DNA of 12,931 bases from an uncultured delta proteobacterium. GTDB taxonomy: Bacteria; RBG-13-61-14; DRUE01. The stretch lies in the NCBI GenBank assembly GCA_903930515.1, contig CAIYYW010000356.1:1-12931 (forward strand). The letters are read 5' to 3'. Positions 1 through 12,810 of the stretch are shown here, in pieces (within the stretch, counting starts at the first letter, position 1; every line of letters begins with the position of its first letter). The notes under the pieces were generated by a model, which searched no databases, was not told where the DNA came from, and was given only the letters and a program-made list of their open reading frames with translations. The position numbers and the translations under genes are program-made.

Positions 1-967
1 CCTGGGAGCCGGTTATGCCAGCTACGGCATCTATCCGGAGCGCAAGGATTACTACGCGCTTCATCTGATGTATGACGATGTCAAAGCCAGGCAACTAACC
101 GAAGAGCATCTGTCCCTGCATTTCCGGATTTTTGACGCGGAGCCCATCCCGACCCGGTTCGTCGCCGGCATCGTCTCTCCGCCGATCTTCCACCGCTACT
201 TTGTTCTTCCCAAAGAAGACGCTCTGGATCCGGACTGGACTGAGCCGGCTTCGGATGAGTATGTGATGAGCCGGGTGACCGAGGTCAACAGCCGGATTCC
301 AGGCGCGTTTGTGATCAGTTCGGGCAAAAATATGGGGGTTTTCAAAGGGGTGGGATTCCCGCTTGAGATCGGAGAATTCTTCCGCCTGGAGGAGTACCGG
401 GGTTATTGCTGGATAGGTCATAGCCGGTTTCCGACCAATACCCCGGGCTGGTGGGGAGGCGCGCATCCGTTCACGATGCTGGACACCTCAATCGTGCATA
501 ACGGAGAAATCAGCTCTTACGGCATCAACCGTAGATATGTGGAGATGTTCGGATACCAATGCACGATGATGACCGACTCCGAGGTGGTGGCATATCTGTT
601 AGACCTGCTTCATAGAAAGCATAAAATCCCGCTCGCTTTGATCCCGGCGATTCTATCCAGTCAATTCTGGAAAAATATTGACCTGATGGATCCGGCTCAA
701 AAACAATTGAATGAAACCATCCGGCAGGTGTACGGGTCCGCGCTTTTGAACGGACCGTTTGCCATTGTGGTCGGACATCGGGGGGGAATGTTCGGTCTGG
801 CGGATCGGGTCAAGCTCAGGCCGATGATTGCGGCGAAGAAGGACGATGTTCTTTATATCGCAAGCGAGGAGAGCGCGATCCGGGAAATCTGCCCGGAGCC
901 GGACCTGGTCTGGATGCCGAGGGCGGGCGAGATGGTGGCTGCGAGCTACGAGGCGGTTCAACCATGA
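1..967 (+). CDS. Glutamate synthase amidotransferase subunit (GltB domain 1, class II GATase), 5' partial
   Basis: This subunit hydrolyses glutamine and supplies ammonia to the synthase subunit encoded next. The frame is open from base 2, before the first ATG at 68; the 22 residues read upstream of it include GYASYGIYPERKDYYALHL, typical of the family. The true start and the catalytic N-terminal cysteine therefore lie outside the window. Visible class II (Ntn) amidotransferase motifs, numbered from the ATG at 68, are HSRFPT (118-123), HNGEI (144-148), TDSEV (169-173) and NGPFAIVVG (228-236). The product is a stand-alone domain, as in archaeal glutamate synthases, and not the N-terminus of a large GltB. 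Its stop overlaps the next start in ATGA (964-967), which implies translational coupling. A purF-like or glmS-like amidotransferase is unlikely because both following genes are GltB domains. Confidence 0.93.
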   Translation, partial: LGAGYASYGIYPERKDYYALHLMYDDVKARQLTEEHLSLHFRIFDAEPIPTRFVAGIVSPPIFHRYFVLPKEDALDPDWTEPASDEYVMSRVTEVNSRIPGAFVISSGKNMGVFKGVGFPLEIGEFFRLEEYRGYCWIGHSRFPTNTPGWWGGAHPFTMLDTSIVHNGEISSYGINRRYVEMFGYQCTMMTDSEVVAYLLDLLHRKHKIPLALIPAILSSQFWKNIDLMDPAQKQLNETIRQVYGSALLNGPFAIVVGHRGGMFGLADRVKLRPMIAAKKDDVLYIASEESAIREICPEPDLVWMPRAGEMVAASYEAVQP

Positions 968-2469
968 GAATGATTCAGCCGGATTTCCGGATCGTGATAG
1001 ATCAGGAAAAATGCCGCAAGTGCGGGAGATGCTCGTTCAACTGCGGGTTCGGCGCGCTCCGGTTCAGCGACCGGGTTATCCCGGAGCCGGAGAAATGCGC
1101 GGGCTGTCATAGGTGCGTGAGCTTCTGTCCGGAGCAGGCGATTACCGTGGAGCTTAACCCGCTGGCGTTCCGTCCCAATGACAACTGGACCCCCGGGCAT
1201 ATCAAGGCGATTTACAAACAGGCAGAGACCGGCGGAATCCTGCTCACCGGGATGGGCAACGACAAGCCCTACCTGATCATCAACGACCATCTCCTGCTTG
1301 ACGCCTGCCAGGTGACCAACCCCAGCATTGACCCGCTCCGGGAGCCGATGGAGCTTCGCACTTACCTGGGAAGACGGCCGGAAAAGCTGGAGTTTAAAAA
1401 GGATGCCGGCAAATGGAAACCGGCCGGGCCTCCACCCAGCACCCTGAAGGTGGAATTGCCGATTTTGTTCGCGCCGATGAGTTATGGGTCCATCAGCTAT
1501 AACGCTTTTCAGGCGCTCTGTATGGCGGCGAAGGAGTTGGACACCCTGATGTACACCGGCGAGGGCGGTCTTCCCAAAGAGCTATATCCTTATGGCGGCC
1601 ATATAATTCTCCAGGTTGCGAGCGGCAGATTCGGCGTGCATCCGGAGTCTCTGAATATCGGAGTGGGCACCCAGATCAAGATCGGTCAGGGCGCCAAGCC
1701 TGGAATCGGCGGTCATCTTCCGGGCGAGAAAATCCCCAGCCATATCTCCAAAACCAGGATGATCCCGGAAGGCACGGACGCTTTAAGCCCGGCGCCTCAT
1801 CACGATATTTATTCCATTGAGGATTTAAGGATGCTGATCTATGCGCTGAAAGAAGCCACCGGGTACAAGCCGGTCTGCGTCAAGATCGCGGCGGTGCATA
1901 ATGTTGCGGCGATCGCCTCGGGCATTTTCCGCGCCGGAGCGGACCAGGTTTATCTGGACGGCTTCCGGGGAGGAACCGGCGCGGCGCCGTTCATCACCAG
2001 GGATCATCTGGGCATTCCGGTGGAATTGGCGGTGGCGGTGGTTGACCAGAGACTTCGGGAGGAAGGCATCCGGCATCTGGGAACCATTGTCGCGGCAGGG
2101 TCGGTTAGAAGCGCCGCGGACGCGGTTAAGCTGATTGCGCTGGGAGCGGATGCGGTTGCGATCGGGACTGCGGCATTAGTGGCGATGGGCTGTCATCTCT
2201 GCCAGAAATGTCATACCGGGAATTGCAGTTGGGGCATTGCCACGCAAAAACCGGAGCTGGTGAGAAGGCTGGACCCGGAGTGGGCCGCGGAAAGATTGGT
2301 CAACCTGGTCCGGGGATGGGAGCACGAAATCAAGGATGTGATGGGAGCAATGGGCATCAACGCGATAGAGTCTTTGCGCGGAAACCGGGAGAGGTTGCGC
2401 GGGCTGGGACTGGACCACGAGACTTTGAAAATCCTGGGGGTCAAGCCGGCCGGAGCGCCGATGGGGTGA
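964..2469 (+). CDS. gltB: Glutamate synthase FMN/Fe-S subunit (GltB domain 2) with N-terminal 2x[4Fe-4S] ferredoxin domain
   Basis: This is the catalytic subunit that reductively aminates 2-oxoglutarate to glutamate on FMN, using ammonia from the amidotransferase. The 501-residue protein starts with a ferredoxin domain carrying two four-cysteine sets (C17, C20, C23, C27 and C45, C48, C51, C55, the last followed by Pro). The FMN-binding TIM barrel runs from about 165 to 475, with PMSYGSIS (171-178), GEGGLP (199-204), KPGIGGHLPG (245-254), DGFRGGTGAAP (332-342) and AAGSVRSAADAVKLIALGAD (377-396). C410, C416 and C421 match the 6/5 spacing of the [3Fe-4S] cysteines of GltB; C413 is an extra cysteine. 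The start at 964 has GAGG at 950-953; an ATG at 970 is spaced worse. The fused ferredoxin domain suggests electrons arrive through iron-sulfur carriers; the donor is not visible here. Confidence 0.95.
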   Translation: MRMIQPDFRIVIDQEKCRKCGRCSFNCGFGALRFSDRVIPEPEKCAGCHRCVSFCPEQAITVELNPLAFRPNDNWTPGHIKAIYKQAETGGILLTGMGNDKPYLIINDHLLLDACQVTNPSIDPLREPMELRTYLGRRPEKLEFKKDAGKWKPAGPPPSTLKVELPILFAPMSYGSISYNAFQALCMAAKELDTLMYTGEGGLPKELYPYGGHIILQVASGRFGVHPESLNIGVGTQIKIGQGAKPGIGGHLPGEKIPSHISKTRMIPEGTDALSPAPHHDIYSIEDLRMLIYALKEATGYKPVCVKIAAVHNVAAIASGIFRAGADQVYLDGFRGGTGAAPFITRDHLGIPVELAVAVVDQRLREEGIRHLGTIVAAGSVRSAADAVKLIALGADAVAIGTAALVAMGCHLCQKCHTGNCSWGIATQKPELVRRLDPEWAAERLVNLVRGWEHEIKDVMGAMGINAIESLRGNRERLRGLGLDHETLKILGVKPAGAPMG

Positions 2470-2477
2470 AGCGTGTC

Positions 2478-2491
2478 GCGACTAAAGTCGC
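2478..2491. repeat. Short perfect inverted repeat in the gap between synthase subunit genes
   Basis: GCGACT-AA-AGTCGC is a 6-bp perfect inverted repeat between the stop of the FMN subunit and the ribosome binding site of the GXGXG subunit. No T-run follows, so it is not a standard intrinsic terminator. It could be a dispersed palindromic element or a small stem that tunes processing inside the operon mRNA. Confidence 0.6.
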
Positions 2492-2512
2492 TCGCCCGTA
2501 ATGGATATTTAT

Positions 2513-2518
2513 AGGAGG
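2513..2518 (+). promoter_or_regulatory. Strong Shine-Dalgarno site of the GXGXG subunit gene
   Basis: AGGAGG lies five bases before the ATG at 2524. It fixes that start over the in-frame ATG five codons later (2539). It also shows independent initiation here, unlike the overlapping upstream pair. Confidence 0.8.
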
Positions 2519-2523
2519 AAAAG

Positions 2524-3324
2524 ATGGAAAATATAATGGAAGTCGGCAGAGAGGTTTTGATTCCGCGGAGGGAGGAAGAAAAAGTAATCATAGACGCCCG
2601 GGATGTTCATTATCGGGATTTGAACGGGCAAATCCGGGAGCTGGCTCAGGAGGGCGCTTCGCGGATTGAGCTGGGCAATGTCAATGGTCAGCGCTATCTG
2701 GGCGCGGGGCTGACGGAAAAAGATTTGCAGATTTCCATCCACGGCACGCCCGGCAACGACCTTGCCGCTTTTATGGACGGGCCGAGGATTGAGGTTTTCG
2801 GCAATGCCCAGGATGCGGTCTCTAATACGATGAACTCGGGCAAAGTGATTATTCACGGGCACGCGGGCGATGTTCTGGGATATGGAATGCGGGGAGGAAG
2901 GCTATATGTTCGCGGAAATGTCGGCTACCGGGTGGGCATTCATATGAAGGCTTATCAGAAACAGGCTCCGGTGATTATTGCAGGCGGAACCGCGGGGGAT
3001 TTTTTCGGGGAATATATGGCGGGCGGAATTTTGGTTCTGCTTGGGCTGGAGCGAAAGCCGGAGGAAAAGATCGTGGGCGACTGGGTCGGAACCGGCATTC
3101 ACGGCGGAGCGATATATCTCCGGGGCGAGGTTGAGCGGCATCAGTTGGGCAAGGAAGTGGGCATTGCGGAAAAAATTCCGGACCAGGAAATGAAAGAGTT
3201 GACCGCCTTGCTCCAGGATTATTGCCGGGAATTTGAACTGGATCCGGAGGAAATTTCAGACAAGCCTTTTTTAAAGCTCTATCCTTTTTCCGCGCGTCCC
3301 TATGGGAAGCTGTATGCGTATTAG
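2524..3324 (+). CDS. Glutamate synthase GXGXG (beta-helix) subunit, GltB domain 3
   Basis: This 266-residue protein corresponds to the C-terminal GXGXG domain of large GltB chains, a right-handed beta-helix with a structural role in coupling the amidotransferase and FMN domains. The repeating glycine pattern runs from about residue 50 to 205: GNVNGQRYLGAG, SIHGTPGNDLAAF, VFGNAQDAVSNTM, IIHGHAGDVLGYGMRGG, VRGNVGYRVGIHM, IIAGGTAGDFFGEYMAGG and VGTGIHGG. The last 60 residues are charged and hydrophilic and probably form a tail. It is the third gene of the split glutamate synthase. No clear terminator lies between it and glnA. Related GXGXG domains occur in formylmethanofuran dehydrogenase FwdC, but the two preceding GltB genes settle the assignment. 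Confidence 0.93.
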   Translation: MENIMEVGREVLIPRREEEKVIIDARDVHYRDLNGQIRELAQEGASRIELGNVNGQRYLGAGLTEKDLQISIHGTPGNDLAAFMDGPRIEVFGNAQDAVSNTMNSGKVIIHGHAGDVLGYGMRGGRLYVRGNVGYRVGIHMKAYQKQAPVIIAGGTAGDFFGEYMAGGILVLLGLERKPEEKIVGDWVGTGIHGGAIYLRGEVERHQLGKEVGIAEKIPDQEMKELTALLQDYCREFELDPEEISDKPFLKLYPFSARPYGKLYAY

Positions 3325-3361
3325 GGGATTAGAGGAAGGCACGGGGGGAAATTTTTTATTT

Positions 3362-3390
3362 TTGCATTAACCCTTGGTTTGTGGTAAAAG
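3362..3390 (+). promoter_or_regulatory. Possible weak sigma70 promoter upstream of glnA
   Basis: TTGCAT (3362-3367) and TAAAAG (3385-3390) are separated by 17 bases in an AT-rich part of the 119-base gap. The matches are only 3/6 and 4/6, so glnA may simply be read through from the synthase genes. I found no TGGCAC-N5-TTGC sigma54 site, which might have been expected for glnA. Confidence 0.3.
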
Positions 3391-3430
3391 GCATAGGAGT
3401 TGCGTAAGGATTAAGGGAAGAAAATCAAAT

Positions 3431-3435
3431 GGAGG
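3431..3435 (+). promoter_or_regulatory. Shine-Dalgarno site that decides the glnA start
   Basis: GGAGG at 3431-3435 sits eight bases before the ATG at 3444. An in-frame ATG at 3429 lies just before this site and would translate it; that ATG has only a weaker AGGGAAG upstream (3414-3420). The downstream start gives the usual GS N-terminus and a 470-residue length. Confidence 0.65.
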
Positions 3436-3443
3436 TTGGGAAG

Positions 3444-4856
3444 ATGGGACCAAAAGAGGTGCTAGAGCTGGCCAAGAAGAACGGGGCGGAGATGGTTGAC
3501 TTGAAGTTTATGGACCTGCCGGGGTTGTGGCAGCATTTTTCCGTTCCCATGCATCAGCTCAAGGAGAGCAGCTTTGAAGAGGGGTTCGGTTTTGACGGGT
3601 CAAGCATCCGGGGATGGCAGCCTATCCACGCCAGCGATATGCTGGTGATCCCGGATTCGGACACCGGCAAGATAGACCCGTTTATGAACCCGGTGACCCT
3701 GAGCCTGATCTGCAACATCGTGGACCCGGTAACCAAGGAGCCTTACACGCGGGACCCGCGCTGGGTGGCTCGCAAGGCAGAGGCGTATCTGAAGAGCACC
3801 AAGATCGCGGACACCGCCTATTTCGGGCCGGAGGCTGAATTTTTTATCTTTGACGACATCCGCTGTCACCAGGACGAGCATTGCGGTTATTACTACCTGG
3901 ATTCCAAGGAGGGTTTTTGGAATTCGGGCCGGGAGGAGAATCCCAACCTGGGTTACAAGCCTCGTTATAAAGAGGGATATTTCCCGGCGCCTCCGATGGA
4001 CAGCCAGCAGAACCTTAGGAGCGAGATGGTGATGGTGCTGGAGTCGTTGGGCCTCCGGATTGAGGCGCAGCATCACGAGGTCGCGACCGCGGGTCAGGCG
4101 GAAATAGACCTCAAATACCTGCCCCTGTTGCAGATGGGGGACAGCCTGATGTGGTTCAAGTATGTGCTGAAAAATGTCGCGTTCCGCAATAACAAGACCG
4201 TAACCTTTATGCCCAAGCCGATCTTCGGAGACAACGGCTCCGGGATGCATATCCATATTTCGCTCTGGAAAGCAGGCAAGGCCCTGTTCGCCGGGAACGG
4301 ATACGGAGGGGTGAGCGAGATGGCGCTTCATTTCATCGCCGGGGTGTTCCGTCACGCTAGGGCCATTTGCGCCTTCACCAACCCGACCACCAACTCCTAT
4401 CGGAGGCTGGTGCCCGGGTTTGAGGCCCCGATCAACCTGGCATATTCCAGCCGGAACAGAAGCGCCGGCATCCGGATCCCGATGTATTCGTCCAAGCCCG
4501 AGGCCAAGCGGCTGGAGATCAGGTTCCCGGACCCGAGCTGCAACGGCTACCTGGCCTTCTCAGCCCTATTGATGGCCGGCCTGGACGGGATTGAGAAAAA
4601 ACTCCCGGCCGGAGAGCCTTTGGACAAGGATATTTACGGACTTACGCCTGAGGAGCTCAAGGATGTCCCCAATACCCCGGCCTCGCTGGAAGAGTCGCTC
4701 AAGGCCCTGGAAGACGATCACGGATTCCTGCTCAAGGGAGATGTCTTCACCAAGGACCTGATTGAAATGTGGCTGGAATACAAAATGGACCACGAAGTCA
4801 GCCCGATGAGACTACGCCCGACGCCCTGGGAGTTCGCGCTGTATTTTGATTGTTAA
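3444..4856 (+). CDS. glnA: Glutamine synthetase type I (GSI-beta-like)
   Basis: The enzyme condenses glutamate and ammonia to glutamine using ATP, in the cytoplasm as a dodecamer. It has 470 residues against 469 in Escherichia coli, and motifs are collinear: FDGSSIRGW near 50, GPEAEFF (128-134), [13 protein letters not shown] (210-222), [16 protein letters not shown] (258-273), [17 protein letters not shown] (313-329), RSAGIRIP (339-346) and [10 protein letters not shown] (356-365). Tyr398 in DIYGLTPEE occupies the position of the adenylylated tyrosine, so control by GlnE-type adenylylation is plausible; glnE is not in the window. An upstream in-frame ATG at 3429 would add five residues. It sits directly after the three synthase genes, completing a GS-GOGAT cycle. 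The C-terminal end (YFDC) is slightly unusual but the enzyme looks intact. Confidence 0.97.
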
Positions 4857-5110: not shown

Positions 5111-5147
5111 CGTGTCCTAGAAACCGGGTGCGATACACTTGGTAATC

Positions 5148-5170
5148 CGAGCGAAGCAGGAAGGCGCTCG
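5148..5170 (+). other. 6-bp stem in the leader of the kelch lipoprotein mRNA
   Basis: CGAGCG (5148-5153) pairs with CGCTCG (5165-5170) across an 11-base loop, ending about 15 bases before the AAGGAG ribosome binding site (5186-5191). A role in mRNA stability or translation is possible but not shown. Confidence 0.35.
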
Positions 5171-5198
5171 CACATTAAAAAAGCAAAGGAGAAGAAAA

Positions 5199-6590
5199 AT
5201 GAAAAAGAAAATGGGATGGATTTTAGTGATCGGGTTGAGCCTGGGGATTTTGGGATGCGGCCCGGCCGGAGAAGAGAACGGCCTGGATCAAGCGGCCGGC
5301 TTGGATTCGGGATTTGATCTTGAGCAGAGCTATGCCACGGCGCTGAATACCACGATCAAGAGTATGCCTCTGCTGGACTCTGACTCTGCCACGGCGCAAT
5401 TTACCTTTACCTGCAATCAAAAGCCTTGCACCTATAAATGTAAATTGGACGAGCTGGCCTGGAAAAAATGCAAGTCTCCCAAGAGCTATTCAAATCTTGG
5501 CGAGGTTACTCACACTTTCAAGGTCAAAGCCACGAATAGTTCCGGTGCCAGTGACCGCACCCCGGCGAGTTATAGCTGGACCATCATGTATCCCGGTTCC
5601 TGGACCGCAACTTCCACCACCGATGCTCCCTCGGCAAGATACGATCTCACTGCGGTCTGGACCGGGACCGAGATGATTGTCTGGGGAGGAGATGCCGGCG
5701 GCTATACCAATACCGGCGGGAAATATGATCCGGCCGGAGACGCTTGGACCGCAACTTCCACTGCCAACGCACCCACCGGGAGAGTTGACCACGGCGCGAT
5801 CTGGGACACGGCGAACTCCAGGATGATTATCTGGGGAGGATTTCAAACCGGATATACATATACTGACACCGGCGGAATCTATGATCCGTCCGCCAATTCT
5901 TGGACCGCGACTTCCACCACGAATGATCCGGGAGCAAGGGGAGTGTTTACCGCGGTTTGGGCAACGGACAAAATGATCGTCTGGGGCGGAGATAATGGCG
6001 ACTTTTTAAACACCGGCGGACTCTATGACCCGACCGGCGATTCCTGGACCGCGATTTCCACCACCAACGCCCCGGTGGCGAGGGACCGGCAGGTCGCGGT
6101 CTGGACCGGCACGGAGATGATCGTCTGGGGAGGCTGGAATGGTTCAACCTTGGATACCGGCGCCAAATATGATCCGAGCGGAAATTCCTGGACCGCGATT
6201 TCCAGCGTTAATGCCCCGGCGGGAAGATATAGCTTCACCGGGGTCTGGACGGGAAGTAAAATGATCGTCTGGGGAGGCAATGCCGATAGCGTTTTAAACA
6301 CGGGCGGTATCTATGACCCGTCCGGCAACTCCTGGACCGCAACCTCTACCACCAATGCTCCTTCCGCCCGGTTTTACCATATTGCCGTCTGGGCCGGCAC
6401 GGAAATGATTGTCTGGGGAGGAGATGCTAATACCGGGGGCAGATATAATCCGGTCTCTAATTTCTGGGTGCCCACCACCACGGTCAACGCTCCGAGCGCA
6501 AGGTCTCATTTGGCAGGGGTCTGGACCGGAAGCCAGATGATTATCTGGGGAGGAGGCGCGGATAATACCGGGGGCAGATTTACGCCCTGA
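5199..6590 (+). CDS. Kelch-type beta-propeller lipoprotein
   Basis: This is a predicted secreted, lipid-anchored protein of 463 residues; its substrate or partner is unknown. The start at 5199 has AAGGAG seven bases upstream and gives a classic signal peptide: lysine-rich MKKKMGW, a hydrophobic stretch, then ILGC with lipobox Cys20. An in-frame TTG at 5139 would bury that signal and is rejected. Residues about 53-129 form an Ig-like domain with four cysteines (C72, C77, C81, C91), ending SHTF-like HTFKVKATNSSG and ASYSWTI. Residues 132-463 contain seven repeats of 41 to 52 residues, each with SWTA(T/I)ST, NAP..R, AVWTGTEMIVWGG and TGG.YDP, as expected for a seven-bladed kelch propeller. The gene is flanked on both sides by repeat-rich DNA and has no evident link to nitrogen metabolism. 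Confidence 0.85.
   Translation: MKKKMGWILVIGLSLGILGCGPAGEENGLDQAAGLDSGFDLEQSYATALNTTIKSMPLLDSDSATAQFTFTCNQKPCTYKCKLDELAWKKCKSPKSYSNLGEVTHTFKVKATNSSGASDRTPASYSWTIMYPGSWTATSTTDAPSARYDLTAVWTGTEMIVWGGDAGGYTNTGGKYDPAGDAWTATSTANAPTGRVDHGAIWDTANSRMIIWGGFQTGYTYTDTGGIYDPSANSWTATSTTNDPGARGVFTAVWATDKMIVWGGDNGDFLNTGGLYDPTGDSWTAISTTNAPVARDRQVAVWTGTEMIVWGGWNGSTLDTGAKYDPSGNSWTAISSVNAPAGRYSFTGVWTGSKMIVWGGNADSVLNTGGIYDPSGNSWTATSTTNAPSARFYHIAVWAGTEMIVWGGDANTGGRYNPVSNFWVPTTTVNAPSARSHLAGVWTGSQMIIWGGGADNTGGRFTP
5601..6587 (+). repeat. Seven in-frame tandem repeats (kelch blades)
   Basis: The TGG of the conserved W-T motif opens each repeat at 5601, 5745, 5901, 6045, 6189, 6333 and 6465. Periods are 144, 156, 144, 144, 144 and 132 bases, with a last unit of 123. 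TGGACCGC(A/G)A recurs at the nucleotide level in the first six units, which points to fairly recent internal duplication; unit 7 has diverged (TGGGTG). Confidence 0.85.
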
Positions 6591-8852: not shown

Positions 8853-10100
8853 ATGGCAAAGATCAATCCGTTTGAAGTGGCTCAAAGGCAACTGGACGAA
8901 TGCGCCAAGATTTTGAAGCTGGATCCGGGGACTCATCAGGTGTTGAGAAATCCCAAGCGGGAGATTCATGTGACGCTCCCGATTAAAATGGATGACGGCA
9001 AGGTCAAGGTTTTCAAGGGGTTCCGCGTGCAATATAATGACGCGCGCGGTCCGGCCAAGGGCGGGATCCGGTTCCATCCCGAGGAGACCATTGACACGGT
9101 TCGCGCCCTGTCCGCCTGGATGACCTGGAAATGCTCGCTGTTGGACCTGCCCCTTGGCGGGGGCAAAGGCGGGATCATCTGCAATCCCAAAGAGATGTCG
9201 CCAACTGAACTGGAGAAGCTGAGCCGGGCATATATTGACCAGGTCTGGCAATTGATCGGGCCGGAGCAGGATATTCCGGCGCCGGATGTTTACACTAATC
9301 CGCAAATTATGGTCTGGATGATGGACGAGTATTCCAAGCTGATGGGCAAAGCCCAATTCGGGACCATTACCGGCAAGCCCCTGGGGTTGGGCGGTTCCGC
9401 GGGAAGAGGAGACGCCACGGCGCGGGGCGGATGGTACACGATCCGGGAAGCCTGCAAGTTTCTGGGGATCAACCTGAGCAAGGCCACCATCGCCATCCAG
9501 GGTTATGGGAATGCCGGATATTTCGCCGCGCTTTTGGCCAAGAAGTTTTTCGGCGCCAAGGTCATCGCGGTAAGCGATTCCAAGGGCGGGATTATCAATA
9601 AAGACGGGCTGGATCCCGATAAGGTCAATCAGCATAAAACCAAGACCGGCTCGGTGATAAATTTTCCCGGAACTTCCCCCATCTCCAACGAGCAGTTATT
9701 GGAGTTAAAAGTGGACATCCTTTGTCCGGCCGCCCTGGAAAATGTGATCACGGATAAAAATGTCAAAAACCTTAAAACCAAGATCGTGGCCGAGCTGGCC
9801 AACGGACCCACCACCCCGGAAGCGGACGATATTCTTTATAAGAATGGAATCCATGTCATCCCCGATTTCCTCTGCAACGCCGGCGGCGTCACCGTGTCCT
9901 ATTTTGAAATGGTGCAAAACTTTTATATGTATTACTGGGAAGAGGATGAGGTTTATAAGCAACTGGATCGCAAGATGACCCATGCCTACCAGGCGGTATT
10001 GAAAACTTCGCAGGATTATAAGATCAATATGAGAAAGGCCGCTTATGTGATCGCGGTGAAACGAGTGGCCGATGCGATGAAAGCCCGCGGCTGGGTTTGA
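8853..10100 (+). CDS. gdhA: Glutamate dehydrogenase (Glu/Leu/Phe/Val dehydrogenase family)
   Basis: It interconverts 2-oxoglutarate plus ammonia and glutamate with NAD(P)H, in the cytoplasm and usually as a hexamer. Its 415 residues match the short hexameric class. The substrate domain has KGFRVQYNDARGPAKGGIRFHP (55-76), PLGGGKGGI with catalytic Lys105 (100-108) and PAPD with Asp145 (142-145). The Rossmann domain has GYGNAG (217-222) and SDSKGG (241-246), then ELANGPTTPEAD (314-325) and CNAGGVTVSYFE (341-352). D242 at the end of the second Rossmann strand hints at NAD+ but does not prove it. The window thus encodes both GS-GOGAT and GDH routes. A leucine or phenylalanine dehydrogenase is less likely given the length and neighbours. 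Confidence 0.94.
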   Translation: MAKINPFEVAQRQLDECAKILKLDPGTHQVLRNPKREIHVTLPIKMDDGKVKVFKGFRVQYNDARGPAKGGIRFHPEETIDTVRALSAWMTWKCSLLDLPLGGGKGGIICNPKEMSPTELEKLSRAYIDQVWQLIGPEQDIPAPDVYTNPQIMVWMMDEYSKLMGKAQFGTITGKPLGLGGSAGRGDATARGGWYTIREACKFLGINLSKATIAIQGYGNAGYFAALLAKKFFGAKVIAVSDSKGGIINKDGLDPDKVNQHKTKTGSVINFPGTSPISNEQLLELKVDILCPAALENVITDKNVKNLKTKIVAELANGPTTPEADDILYKNGIHVIPDFLCNAGGVTVSYFEMVQNFYMYYWEEDEVYKQLDRKMTHAYQAVLKTSQDYKINMRKAAYVIAVKRVADAMKARGWV

Positions 10101-10173
10101 GCCTTGACCATTTCAGGAATCATCCCCGGCTGAAAAATAAGGCTGCAAGGGGGCTGGGTGATGACAATCACCC
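10100..10173. repeat. Two stem structures between gdhA and the ATP-grasp fusion gene
   Basis: AGCCTT (10100-10105) pairs with AAGGCT (10139-10144), with TCAG (10113-10116) and CTGA (10130-10133) nested inside. Next, GGGTGAT (10156-10162) pairs with ATCACCC (10167-10173) across GACA. Neither is followed by a T-run. They may attenuate read-through from gdhA or shape the leader of the next gene. Confidence 0.45.
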
Positions 10174-10188
10174 CGAGGGCTGATTAAG

Positions 10189-12810
10189 GTGAAAGAGCCG
10201 TTCATCAAAACCGGTATCCCGGCTTTGGACGAGGTGATCCAGGGACTTCGGGTGGGGGATAATGTGGTCTGGCAGGTGGACGACCTGGAGGATTACCGGC
10301 ACTTCGCCCAGCCCTTTGTCAAACAAGCGATTATTTCCCGCCGGAAATGCGTTTATCTGCGTTTTGCACCGCACCCGGAGGTGGTTCGGGCAGAAGCCGG
10401 CCTGGACATCGTTACGCTGGATCCCGGCGCCGGCTTTGACAGCTTCAGCCGCGCGGTCCAGAAAATCGTGGAAGAAAACGGACCCGGGGTGTTCTATGTT
10501 TTTGATAACCTTTCCGCCCTGGTCGGGGAATGGGCCACCGACGAACTCCTGGCCAATTTCTTCAAGCTCACCTGCCCGTTTCTATATGAAATGGACACCA
10601 TCGCCTATTTTGCCTTGACCCGCGGTCAACATTCCTACAGCGCGGTGGCGCGGATCCGGGACACCACCCAGGTGCTGATTGATGTCTACCGGGTGCGGGG
10701 ACAGATGTATATCAACCCGATCAAGGTCGGAGACCGCTATTCTCCCCAGATGTTTGTTCCTCATATAGTTTCTGAAGAGGGCTATGTTCCGGTTTTCCAG
10801 AGCGGGGAAGCGGCCGCAGTAGCCACTTCCGCCAAGAAACGGCCATTACCCGCGGCCGCGGCAGCCTGCGCTCCCTGGGACAGCATCTTCGCCAAATTAC
10901 AGCAGCGCTGCGAAATCGCGCAAAACCTGGACGAGAGCGACCCGGAACTCTCGGCCCTGAAGCGGGAGTTGAGCCGGATGCTGCTCGGGAATCATCCCGA
11001 GTTCAGCAAGATCGCCGACCGATATTTTACCCTGGAGGATTTGCTCTCGATCCGGGAGAGGATGATCGGCTCCGGCCGGATCGGAGGCAAGGCGGTCGGA
11101 ATGCTGTTGGCCCGCAAAATCCTGGGCGACAACTCCAACCAGGCGGGAATTATCTTTTCCCAAATCCTGGAGGATCACGATTCTTTTTATATCGGCTCGG
11201 ATGTCTTTTTCACCTTTCTGGTGGAGAACGATCTGTTCCGGCTGAGACTTCGGATGACCAGCAATTCCGAGATCAGCCGGGAGGAATTTGAGGAAGTGGA
11301 GCAGAGATTCCTGGCTGGAAAATTCCCGGAGCCGATTCTGGAACAGTTCCGGAACCTGCTCGATTACTATGGACAGGCCCCGATCATCGTCCGGTCCAGC
11401 AGTCTCCTTGAAGACAGTTTTGGAAACGCTTTTGCCGGGAAATACCGGAGCGAATTCTGCGCCAACCAGGGGAATTTTGATACCCGGTTGGAATCTTTCC
11501 TATGTGCGGTCAAGCTGGTTTATGCCAGCGCGCTTAATCCCCACGCGCTTTCCTATCGGCAGAAACGGGGCCTGGGAGAGAGCGATGAGCAGATGGCGAT
11601 CCTGGTGCAAAGGGTATCCGGGATTCCCTACCGGCATTATTTCTTCCCCGCCCTGGCCGGAGTGGCTTTCTCAAAAAACCTTTATACCTGGAGCGACCGG
11701 ATTGACCCGGACCAGGGCATCATCCGGATGGTGTTTGGACTGGGAACCCGCGCCGTGGAGCGGGTGGGAGGAGATTACCCGAGAATGATCGCGATCAGCC
11801 ATCCCTTGCTCCGGCCCGAAACCGGAATCAAAATCGCCAAGTATTCCCAGAAGATGATTGACCTGATTGATTTAAAGGCAAATGAGTTCGCTTCCAAACC
11901 TCTAACCCAGGTGATTGCCGGAACCGACTACCCGAACCTGTTCCTGCTGGTCTCCAATATGAACAGCGGCTTCCCGCAAGACCCGGTGAGCAATTATCTG
12001 GAAGGCCCTGAGAACGATTATGTGCTTACTTTCAACAACCTCATTGCCCGCACCGACTTCATAAAGATTTTCGGAACGATGATGCAAGAGTTGGAACGAG
12101 CCTATAACCATCCGGTTGACACCGAGTTCACCGCTTCCCTGGACCACAACCAGAATCTGAAAATCAACCTGCTCCAATGCCGCTCCCTTTATATGCCCAG
12201 CGCCGCCGAGATGATCTCCATTCCCGAAAATATCGGCAAAAAAGCCATCCTCTTCCGCTCCAATCGGATGATCGGCTCCGGCGTGGTTTCCGATCTAAAA
12301 TACATCCTCTTTATTGACCCCAAATGGTACAGCGAGATCAAGGATTACGAGACTAAAAAATCCCTCGGCCGCCTGGTGGGAAAAATCAACAAGCATCCCA
12401 AAATCATCAAAGGAAAAATTATGATGATGGGACCGGGCAGATGGGGAAGCTCTAATATTGACCTCGGCATCAATGTCGGGTACGCGGATATTGATAATGC
12501 CTCGGTCCTGGTGGAAATCGCCCGGGAAGAAGCCGGACATTCCCCCGAAATCTCCTACGGAACCCATTTCTTCCAGGATTTGGTGGAAGCCCAAATCATC
12601 TTCGTCCCGGTTTATCCCGATGACCCCAAAACCGAATTTAACCCGTCATTTTTTTACAACTCCGCCAACTCGCTCCGGAAAATACTGCCCGACGCCAAAA
12701 AATACGAAAAATTCGTCAAACTGATCAACATCCCCGAGTCCACCAAAGGCAAATCCGCCCAGCTAATTGCCAACCCCGGTTCCCGAAAAGCAATCTGTTT
12801 CCTGCAATAA
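10189..12810 (+). CDS. Degenerate KaiC/RecA-like domain fused to a PEP-synthase-type ATP-grasp domain
   Basis: The function is unknown; a regulatory or phosphotransfer role is only inferred. Residues 1-200 look like a KaiC-type domain: GIPALDEVIQGLRVGDNVVW (9-28), a Walker B-like VFYVFDN (102-107) and a C-terminal RDTTQVLIDVYRVRGQMYI (157-175). The P-loop is replaced by QVDDLEDYRHF (29-39), with no GKT. After an Ala-rich linker (207-228), residues about 280-540 and 640-667 match the PPDK/PEP synthase N-terminal ATP-grasp: GGKAVGM (299-305), IIVRSSSLLEDSFGNAFAGK (399-418), GVAFSK (491-496), FGLGTRAV (516-523) and LLQCRSL (661-667). The last 200 residues include GPGRWGSSNIDLGI (748-761) and YGTHFFQDL (790-798). 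Phosphohistidine and PEP-binding domains are absent, so it is not a complete PEP synthase. GTG start with GAGGG at 10175-10179; it lies 88 bases after gdhA. Confidence 0.85.
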   Translation: MKEPFIKTGIPALDEVIQGLRVGDNVVWQVDDLEDYRHFAQPFVKQAIISRRKCVYLRFAPHPEVVRAEAGLDIVTLDPGAGFDSFSRAVQKIVEENGPGVFYVFDNLSALVGEWATDELLANFFKLTCPFLYEMDTIAYFALTRGQHSYSAVARIRDTTQVLIDVYRVRGQMYINPIKVGDRYSPQMFVPHIVSEEGYVPVFQSGEAAAVATSAKKRPLPAAAAACAPWDSIFAKLQQRCEIAQNLDESDPELSALKRELSRMLLGNHPEFSKIADRYFTLEDLLSIRERMIGSGRIGGKAVGMLLARKILGDNSNQAGIIFSQILEDHDSFYIGSDVFFTFLVENDLFRLRLRMTSNSEISREEFEEVEQRFLAGKFPEPILEQFRNLLDYYGQAPIIVRSSSLLEDSFGNAFAGKYRSEFCANQGNFDTRLESFLCAVKLVYASALNPHALSYRQKRGLGESDEQMAILVQRVSGIPYRHYFFPALAGVAFSKNLYTWSDRIDPDQGIIRMVFGLGTRAVERVGGDYPRMIAISHPLLRPETGIKIAKYSQKMIDLIDLKANEFASKPLTQVIAGTDYPNLFLLVSNMNSGFPQDPVSNYLEGPENDYVLTFNNLIARTDFIKIFGTMMQELERAYNHPVDTEFTASLDHNQNLKINLLQCRSLYMPSAAEMISIPENIGKKAILFRSNRMIGSGVVSDLKYILFIDPKWYSEIKDYETKKSLGRLVGKINKHPKIIKGKIMMMGPGRWGSSNIDLGINVGYADIDNASVLVEIAREEAGHSPEISYGTHFFQDLVEAQIIFVPVYPDDPKTEFNPSFFYNSANSLRKILPDAKKYEKFVKLINIPESTKGKSAQLIANPGSRKAICFLQ

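Follow-up and report, generated by a model that had tools for sequence, protein, structure and literature searches.

A predicted dikinase-type protein with a KaiC-like domain lacking the P-loop, encoded beside a glutamate dehydrogenase gene

What does a KaiC-like fold that has lost its P-loop do when it is fused to a dikinase-type ATP-grasp domain and encoded next to a glutamate dehydrogenase (GDH) gene? The question is raised by a complete ORF of 873 aa (10189..12810, forward strand, GTG start, TAA stop) located in the window, which is the whole stretch of 12,931 nucleotides that was analyzed. From the N- to the C-terminus, the product comprises a pseudo-KaiC domain, an ATP-grasp domain and a diverged C-terminal domain. 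A sequence-only reading of this DNA had described a dead sensor-like ATPase joined to a phosphotransferase, which together could form an energy or nitrogen sensing device, and such a device is plausible. The interpretation favored here, given about an even chance of being correct, is that of a dikinase-derived phosphotransferase devoted to glutamate and ammonium metabolism, probably regulatory, which would act via a phosphorylated H793 and the pseudo-KaiC domain.

The locus, its relatives and their linkage to nitrogen metabolism

The ORF lies 88 bp downstream of an archaeal-type GDH gene with the same orientation (gdhA, 8853..10100, forward strand; PF00208/PF02812, GdhA_Arch model, linkage survey), a conserved neighbor whose product is the proposed partner of the 873-aa protein. 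The first part of the window (2..4856, forward strand) provides a context of ammonium assimilation, with glutamate synthase split into three genes (2-967, 964-2469 and 2524-3324) and a type I glutamine synthetase (3429-4856), all identified by Pfam and NCBIfam. The glutamate synthase parts (2-3324) are an amidotransferase, a ferredoxin-type FMN domain and GXGXG, in an archaeal-like arrangement. A kelch-repeat protein and NAD synthase are also encoded in the window (Pfam, NCBIfam). The former, a β-propeller protein with a lipoprotein-like signal (inner ATG, MKKKMGW...LGC), is encoded at 5139-6590, between glnA and the NAD synthase gene. Just upstream of the start codon of the 873-aa ORF there is a perfect 7-bp inverted repeat (GGGTGAT-4-ATCACCC, 10156-10173), possibly an operator or a leader hairpin. 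The contig ends soon after the ORF, at the end of the window.

One scan of genome contigs yielded 80 relatives, nearly all of which cover the whole protein, and 76 of them (822-906 aa) were aligned with the window protein to give 77 full-length sequences. The bacterial relatives belong to Thermodesulfobacteriota and other deltaproteobacteria, Chloroflexota, Omnitrophota, Planctomycetota and Verrucomicrobiota/Kiritimatiellota; others are found in Bacillota (Syntrophomonas, Pelotomaculum) and Methanosarcinaceae (Methanolobus, Methanomethylovorans). The protein split anciently into two clades, strongly separated in its tree (100% local support), and the mix of phyla in the tree suggests transfer, although for many rows, which are metagenome bins, the taxonomy is that of the submitter's title. 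The distribution of the gene is patchy: neither the single further species examined from the genus nor the single further genus examined from the order yielded it. Since the relatives all stop at a similar point (822-906 aa), a truncated copy is ruled out. At one locus (L053:8339-10978) a second, diverged copy (37%) is convergent with the first and lies near nrpR. Two nearly identical copies (L109 and L110) come from bins named Kiritimatiellae and Spirochaetales, a likeness that is probably due to bin contamination. Among openly licensed PMC papers, no paper on this protein family was found, and nothing that concerns the family on KaiC with a dikinase, or on GDH or NrpR with a dikinase.

Gene neighborhoods were surveyed within 3 kb at the 54 loci flanked on either side by 1.5 kb or more. 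A GDH gene is present in 28/54, NrpR in 9/54, and at least one ammonium-assimilation gene (GDH, large or small subunit of glutamate synthase, glutamine synthetase, NrpR, AmtB or PII) in 38/54, so that the link to gdhA and nitrogen read from the single locus extends to the family. By rough reasoning, this linkage is far above chance for bacterial genomes of some 3,000 genes. Each clade has its own GDH: clade I adjoins the archaeal type (18/18 by identity cut, 19/19 by tree, which places L076 there) and clade II a 450-aa GDH (16/17 by identity cut, 16/16 by tree). At 41 of the 76 loci there is no GDH within 3.5 kb, partly owing to short contigs. Because the GDH gene may be upstream or downstream, co-directional or opposed, depending on the locus, the association is not one frozen operon, though joint inheritance is still part of it. 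The protein and its GDH show correlated pairwise distances (r 0.57 in clade I, 0.79 in clade II), which shared descent alone could explain. Some loci adjoin glutamate synthase, CTP synthase or carbamoyl-phosphate synthase instead. An NrpR-type operator (GGAA-N6-TTCC) occurs upstream at 2/76 loci and lends no support to the linkage. A role dedicated to glutamate and ammonium metabolism is considered quite probable; a direct effect on GDH does not follow from gene neighborhood, and the proposal that this enzyme is the direct target is a tentative one, with somewhat less than an even chance of being right.

The N-terminal pseudo-KaiC domain and its exchange for other modules

The full-length protein was modeled with AlphaFold2 (pLDDT 87.4, pTM 0.88), and a single-sequence search of solved structures with it gave no match. 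Its N-terminal part (residues 1-205, 10189..10803, forward strand) is a KaiC/RecA-like domain without a P-loop, as seen by structure alignment and hhalign. The KaiC/RecA-like framework recognized by the sequence-only reading is upheld by the model, in which residues 1-201 align with KaiC 258-481 (VIA-align 2) at a Z of 22.2 and an rmsd of 2.7 over 192 residues. The profile match of the N-terminus to KaiC-type sequences is weak (E 9e-4, probability 23%, 55 columns) and its register is right: in the hhalign alignment with KaiC/RadA/RecA-type sequences, VDDLEDYRHF falls exactly on the P-loop, and the TG..LD entry motif is matched as well. There is no match to the Pfam ATPase family PF06745 in the 873-aa protein (E up to 1).

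The Walker A P-loop (GxxxxGK[ST]) is found in 0/77 of the aligned full-length sequences. Its absence from all 77 makes the loss, first noticed in a single sequence, a fixed trait and the domain a pseudo-ATPase family-wide; a loss peculiar to the window copy is thereby ruled out, nor was any homologue found that retains the P-loop or has a PEP-synthase C-terminus. For want of a P-loop, identity as a KaiC ATPase is ruled out too. The place of Walker A is taken by residues 23-39 (GDNVVWQVDDLEDYRHF, 10255..10305, forward strand, delimited by alignment columns), in which G23, D24, N25 and V27 are invariant in the 77-sequence alignment. The acidic DDLEDY said to replace the P-loop is present in the window protein, but the DDLE stretch varies among the relatives, and what the family conserves in place of the P-loop is GDNVVWQVDxxxDY. 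By sequence inspection, the strand YVSGEES of RadA/KaiC-type proteins, which bears the catalytic Glu, becomes YxRFAxH in the pseudo-KaiC domain. D106 (10504..10506, forward strand), in VFYVFD, is invariant in the alignment and a candidate for the Walker B aspartate position, an equivalence judged by eye from the strand pattern and not from a residue-level structure alignment. The polar residues that are invariant or nearly so are D24, N25, R58, H62, D106, R145, H148, R157, T159, Q161, K179 and R183. Because invariant residues are kept though the P-loop is absent in 77/77, the domain is under selection, and the conservation of the polar residues suggests that they may form a binding surface.

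A sister family of about 990 aa has two receiver-type domains, followed by the same ATP-grasp (PPDK_N) and C-terminal domains. On inspection, the second receiver has the acidic pair, Asp, Ser and Lys in the expected places, and the C-terminal domain keeps GRWG and G-[TS]-H-F; a dikinase-driven phosphorelay is possible in this family. Its loci (L023, L024, L025, L026, L027, L028, L199-L218) often have GDH adjacent. In the class of G055, 18/23 genomes carry it, and of the 15 loci examined in that class 10 show an adjacent GDH gene. A receiver-type copy was not found in the genome that carries the window, which is assembled in 401 pieces, the window itself stopping at a contig end. Relatives of a third type, without the pseudo-KaiC domain, occur together with GDH and the receiver type in four loci (L024, L216, L217 and L218). 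That of L024 (7920-10592) is beside GDH and has a C-terminal nucleotidyltransferase domain (PF01909, 5e-7), which is another module on the same engine. Taken together, the sister family and the third type show that the engine is constant and the N-terminal module varies, with GDH still a frequent neighbor.

These features bear on a rival interpretation, in which the protein would be a metabolic dikinase that transfers the phosphoryl group from its phosphohistidine to a small molecule in a pocket of the pseudo-KaiC domain, giving a phosphorylated glutamate, glutamine or 2-oxoglutarate intermediate, as rifampin phosphotransferase (RPH) does with rifampin. The three-part logic would be that of RPH, with two substrate domains and a swivel (PMC4844700). 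The many invariant or nearly invariant polar residues of the pseudo-KaiC domain are what an anion pocket would have; glutamine-using biosynthetic genes are also among the neighbors, and such neighbors also fit a metabolic enzyme. However, in GDH-linked relatives receiver-like or other domains replace the N-terminal module, a pattern that suits an input or partner domain more than a fixed catalytic pocket, and the window contains no obvious step without an assignment. This alternative is possible but rather unlikely, and the regulatory interpretation is retained here.

The ATP-grasp and C-terminal domains

The sole Pfam match in the 873-aa protein is PPDK_N (PF01326, residues 297-670, E 1.5e-43). 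Together with the structure and the alignment to PEP synthase (PEPS), it defines a PEPS/RPH-type ATP-grasp domain at residues 281-667 (11029..12189, forward strand). The assignment of the sequence-only reading is thus confirmed, and the motifs that it quoted, here and in the N-terminal domain (DDLEDY, GGKAVGM, VRSSSLLEDS, FGLGTRAV, LLQCRSL), are all present in the translation. The whole model matches RPH at Z 21.6-24.8 (21.6 for the ATP domain 5hv6, and 24.8 for 5hv3, the best match) and PEPS at Z 23.2. K301, R402, E646, Q663 and R665 are invariant in the 77-sequence alignment, and R402, E646, Q663 and R665 align with nucleotide residues of PEPS, as far as the profile alignment reaches. In RPH, the ATP-site residues Lys22, Arg117 and Glu297 are the counterparts of conserved ATP-grasp residues; changing Lys22 or Arg117 abolishes rifampin resistance, whereas resistance is kept when Glu297 is changed (PMC4844700). 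The ATP-grasp half should be active.

The barrel and the phosphohistidine domain of PEP synthase were both held to be missing, so that any phosphate would need another acceptor. The first point is borne out: the reading frame stops once the C-terminal domain is complete, Pfam finds no PEP/pyruvate barrel, and relatives are of similar length. The second is probably wrong. Residues 668-873 (12190..12807, forward strand), without a Pfam match, are predicted from the model and its structure matches to be a swivelling phosphohistidine-type domain that has diverged. For this domain, 81 sequences were collected, including the receiver-type sister family, and the region modeled alone from them has a pLDDT of 90.1 and a pTM of 0.89. 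Among 998 solved chains aligned with VIA, the best 10 rows comprise two C-terminal domains of pyruvate kinase and eight central domains of PPDK, at Z values of 6.7 to 5.6 that are below the usual safe level; the next row, an unrelated one, is at Z 5.2. The alignment runs nearly end to end (1-206 on PPDK 374-511), and the alignments of the whole-protein model reach residue 466 of PEPS and residue 866 of RPH, i.e., inside their His domains. Sequence methods do not detect this relation: none of the 81 C-terminal domains has a Pfam match to PEP-utilizers (PF00391, GGxTSH), profile comparison with PEP-utilizers sequences finds no similarity (hhalign prob 0.1), and the GGxxSHAA motif is not present in the 873-aa protein. 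Foldseek on the domain gives nothing significant either (best E 0.16). For the lack of barrel and PEP-utilizers sequence, identity as PEP synthase or PPDK is ruled out.

H793 (12565..12567, forward strand), in S-x-G-T-H-F-F, is invariant in 81/81 C-terminal domains and is the predicted phosphohistidine. In the models it stands at the start of a helix between two strands, which we take to be the place of the catalytic His in the PPDK fold; its equivalence to the PPDK histidine is predicted from topology and not from a residue-level structural alignment. A GPGRWG loop (residues 748-753, 12430..12447, forward strand) is nearly invariant in this family and in the sister family. A diverged swivelling phosphohistidine domain, undetected by sequence methods, is the probable identity of residues 668-873, and a phosphohistidine carrier is thus probably aboard the protein itself. 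If this is right, the protein is a complete dikinase engine that lacks only the PEP/pyruvate barrel. A stand-alone PEP-utilizers or phosphohistidine protein, for which a genome search had been proposed, was not found; judged by size and domains, the only two PEP-utilizers proteins of the genome resemble PPDK and PtsI.

The C-terminal domain could also be no phosphocarrier at all. The ATP-grasp domain would then activate a carboxylate or phosphorylate a substrate directly, with GPGRWG and GTHFFQ belonging to another active site. The domain indeed has no detectable sequence relation to PEP-utilizers; its structural Z values are modest, it is longer by about 70 residues, and its motif departs from GGxTSH. 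Yet the ten best structural matches are all swivel folds over nearly the whole domain, ahead of the unrelated row, and the domain order after the ATP-grasp is the same as in PPDK and PEPS; such a direct reaction is regarded as unlikely, and the phosphocarrier assignment is kept.

Proposed mechanism and comparison with known systems

In the proposed mechanism, the protein would belong, as a divergent member, to the same dikinase superfamily as PEP synthase, PPDK and rifampin phosphotransferase, and would serve glutamate and ammonium metabolism. The ATP-grasp domain would bind ATP and transfer the β-phosphate to H793 on the C-terminal swivelling domain, with release of AMP and Pi. The phosphohistidine domain would then swing to the N-terminal pseudo-KaiC domain, which would take the place of a substrate domain and serve as an acceptor, a ligand sensor or a docking site for a target. 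The most likely role would be regulatory, GDH or GDH-coupled ammonium assimilation being tuned to the nitrogen or energy state, in a manner comparable to VadK. The protein is likely to work like a dikinase, and dikinase-type autophosphorylation is judged probable. That the pseudo-KaiC domain is a mere scaffold or oligomerization domain, and the protein a non-signalling relic or a moonlighting PEP-synthase remnant, is very unlikely: KaiC-like domains are commonly hexameric and GDH is hexameric too, but the conservation of ATP-grasp catalytic and pseudo-KaiC residues in 77 sequences across many phyla indicates that the protein is not decaying.

A broader, more speculative and rather unlikely proposal is that of a dikinase-driven GDH-control family in which a constant engine of ATP-grasp and cryptic phosphohistidine domains would be combined with swappable N-terminal modules, such as the pseudo-KaiC domain here and the two receiver domains of the sister family. 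The swivel His would receive phosphate from ATP and hand it to the module or to GDH, in a phosphorelay without a classical histidine kinase, and the dead KaiC would be a nitrogen or energy sensor. To our knowledge, no earlier dikinase controller with a dead KaiC domain has been described. If the regulatory interpretation favored here is right, a large uncharacterized family from anaerobic bacteria and methanogens, in about a dozen phyla, would be a dedicated partner of GDH. After VadK, this would be the second instance in which a dikinase has come to control central metabolism, and the family would contain a phosphohistidine domain hidden from sequence databases. Two consequences would be measurable: H793 would be phosphorylated, and GDH activity or binding would be altered.

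The known systems each resemble part of the protein. KaiC and other RecA-like ATPases (7s65, others) share the fold of residues 1-201 and the TG..LD entry motif; in contrast to them, the present family lacks Walker A, has YxRFAxH for YVSGEES and consists of a single such domain fused to a dikinase. PEP synthase and PPDK have the PF01326 ATP-grasp followed by a domain that corresponds to the one matched here (the PPDK central phosphohistidine domain), whereas the 873-aa protein has no barrel, carries an N-terminal pseudo-KaiC domain and has a predicted His domain undetectable by sequence. RPH (5hv3) is similar in its type of ATP-grasp with conserved ATP residues, in its small C-terminal swivelling domain, of which a counterpart is predicted here, and in having two spatially separate ends; unlike RPH, the 873-aa protein has no rifampin-binding domain, has the pseudo-KaiC domain at its N-terminus and has the His motif G-T-H-F-F rather than the PEP-utilizers motif. 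The split dikinase HpeHI (9goj) has the same ATP-grasp type and likewise recombines dikinase parts with other substrate domains, but it is made of two proteins and phosphorylates phenolic compounds (PMC12167813). The nearest functional precedent is VadK (Rv1127c) of M. tuberculosis, a regulatory histidine kinase derived from PPDK. It lacks the barrel, is autophosphorylated on His422 and interacts with enzymes of the methylcitrate cycle (PMC13400623). Compared by description, both proteins combine an ATP-grasp with a phosphohistidine domain, in the present case a predicted one, and have no barrel, and both are tied to a metabolic pathway possibly under their control; VadK differs in consisting only of the ATP-binding and phospho-transfer His domains, in its link to the methylcitrate cycle and in being the one of the two for which autophosphorylation has been shown (PMC13400623).
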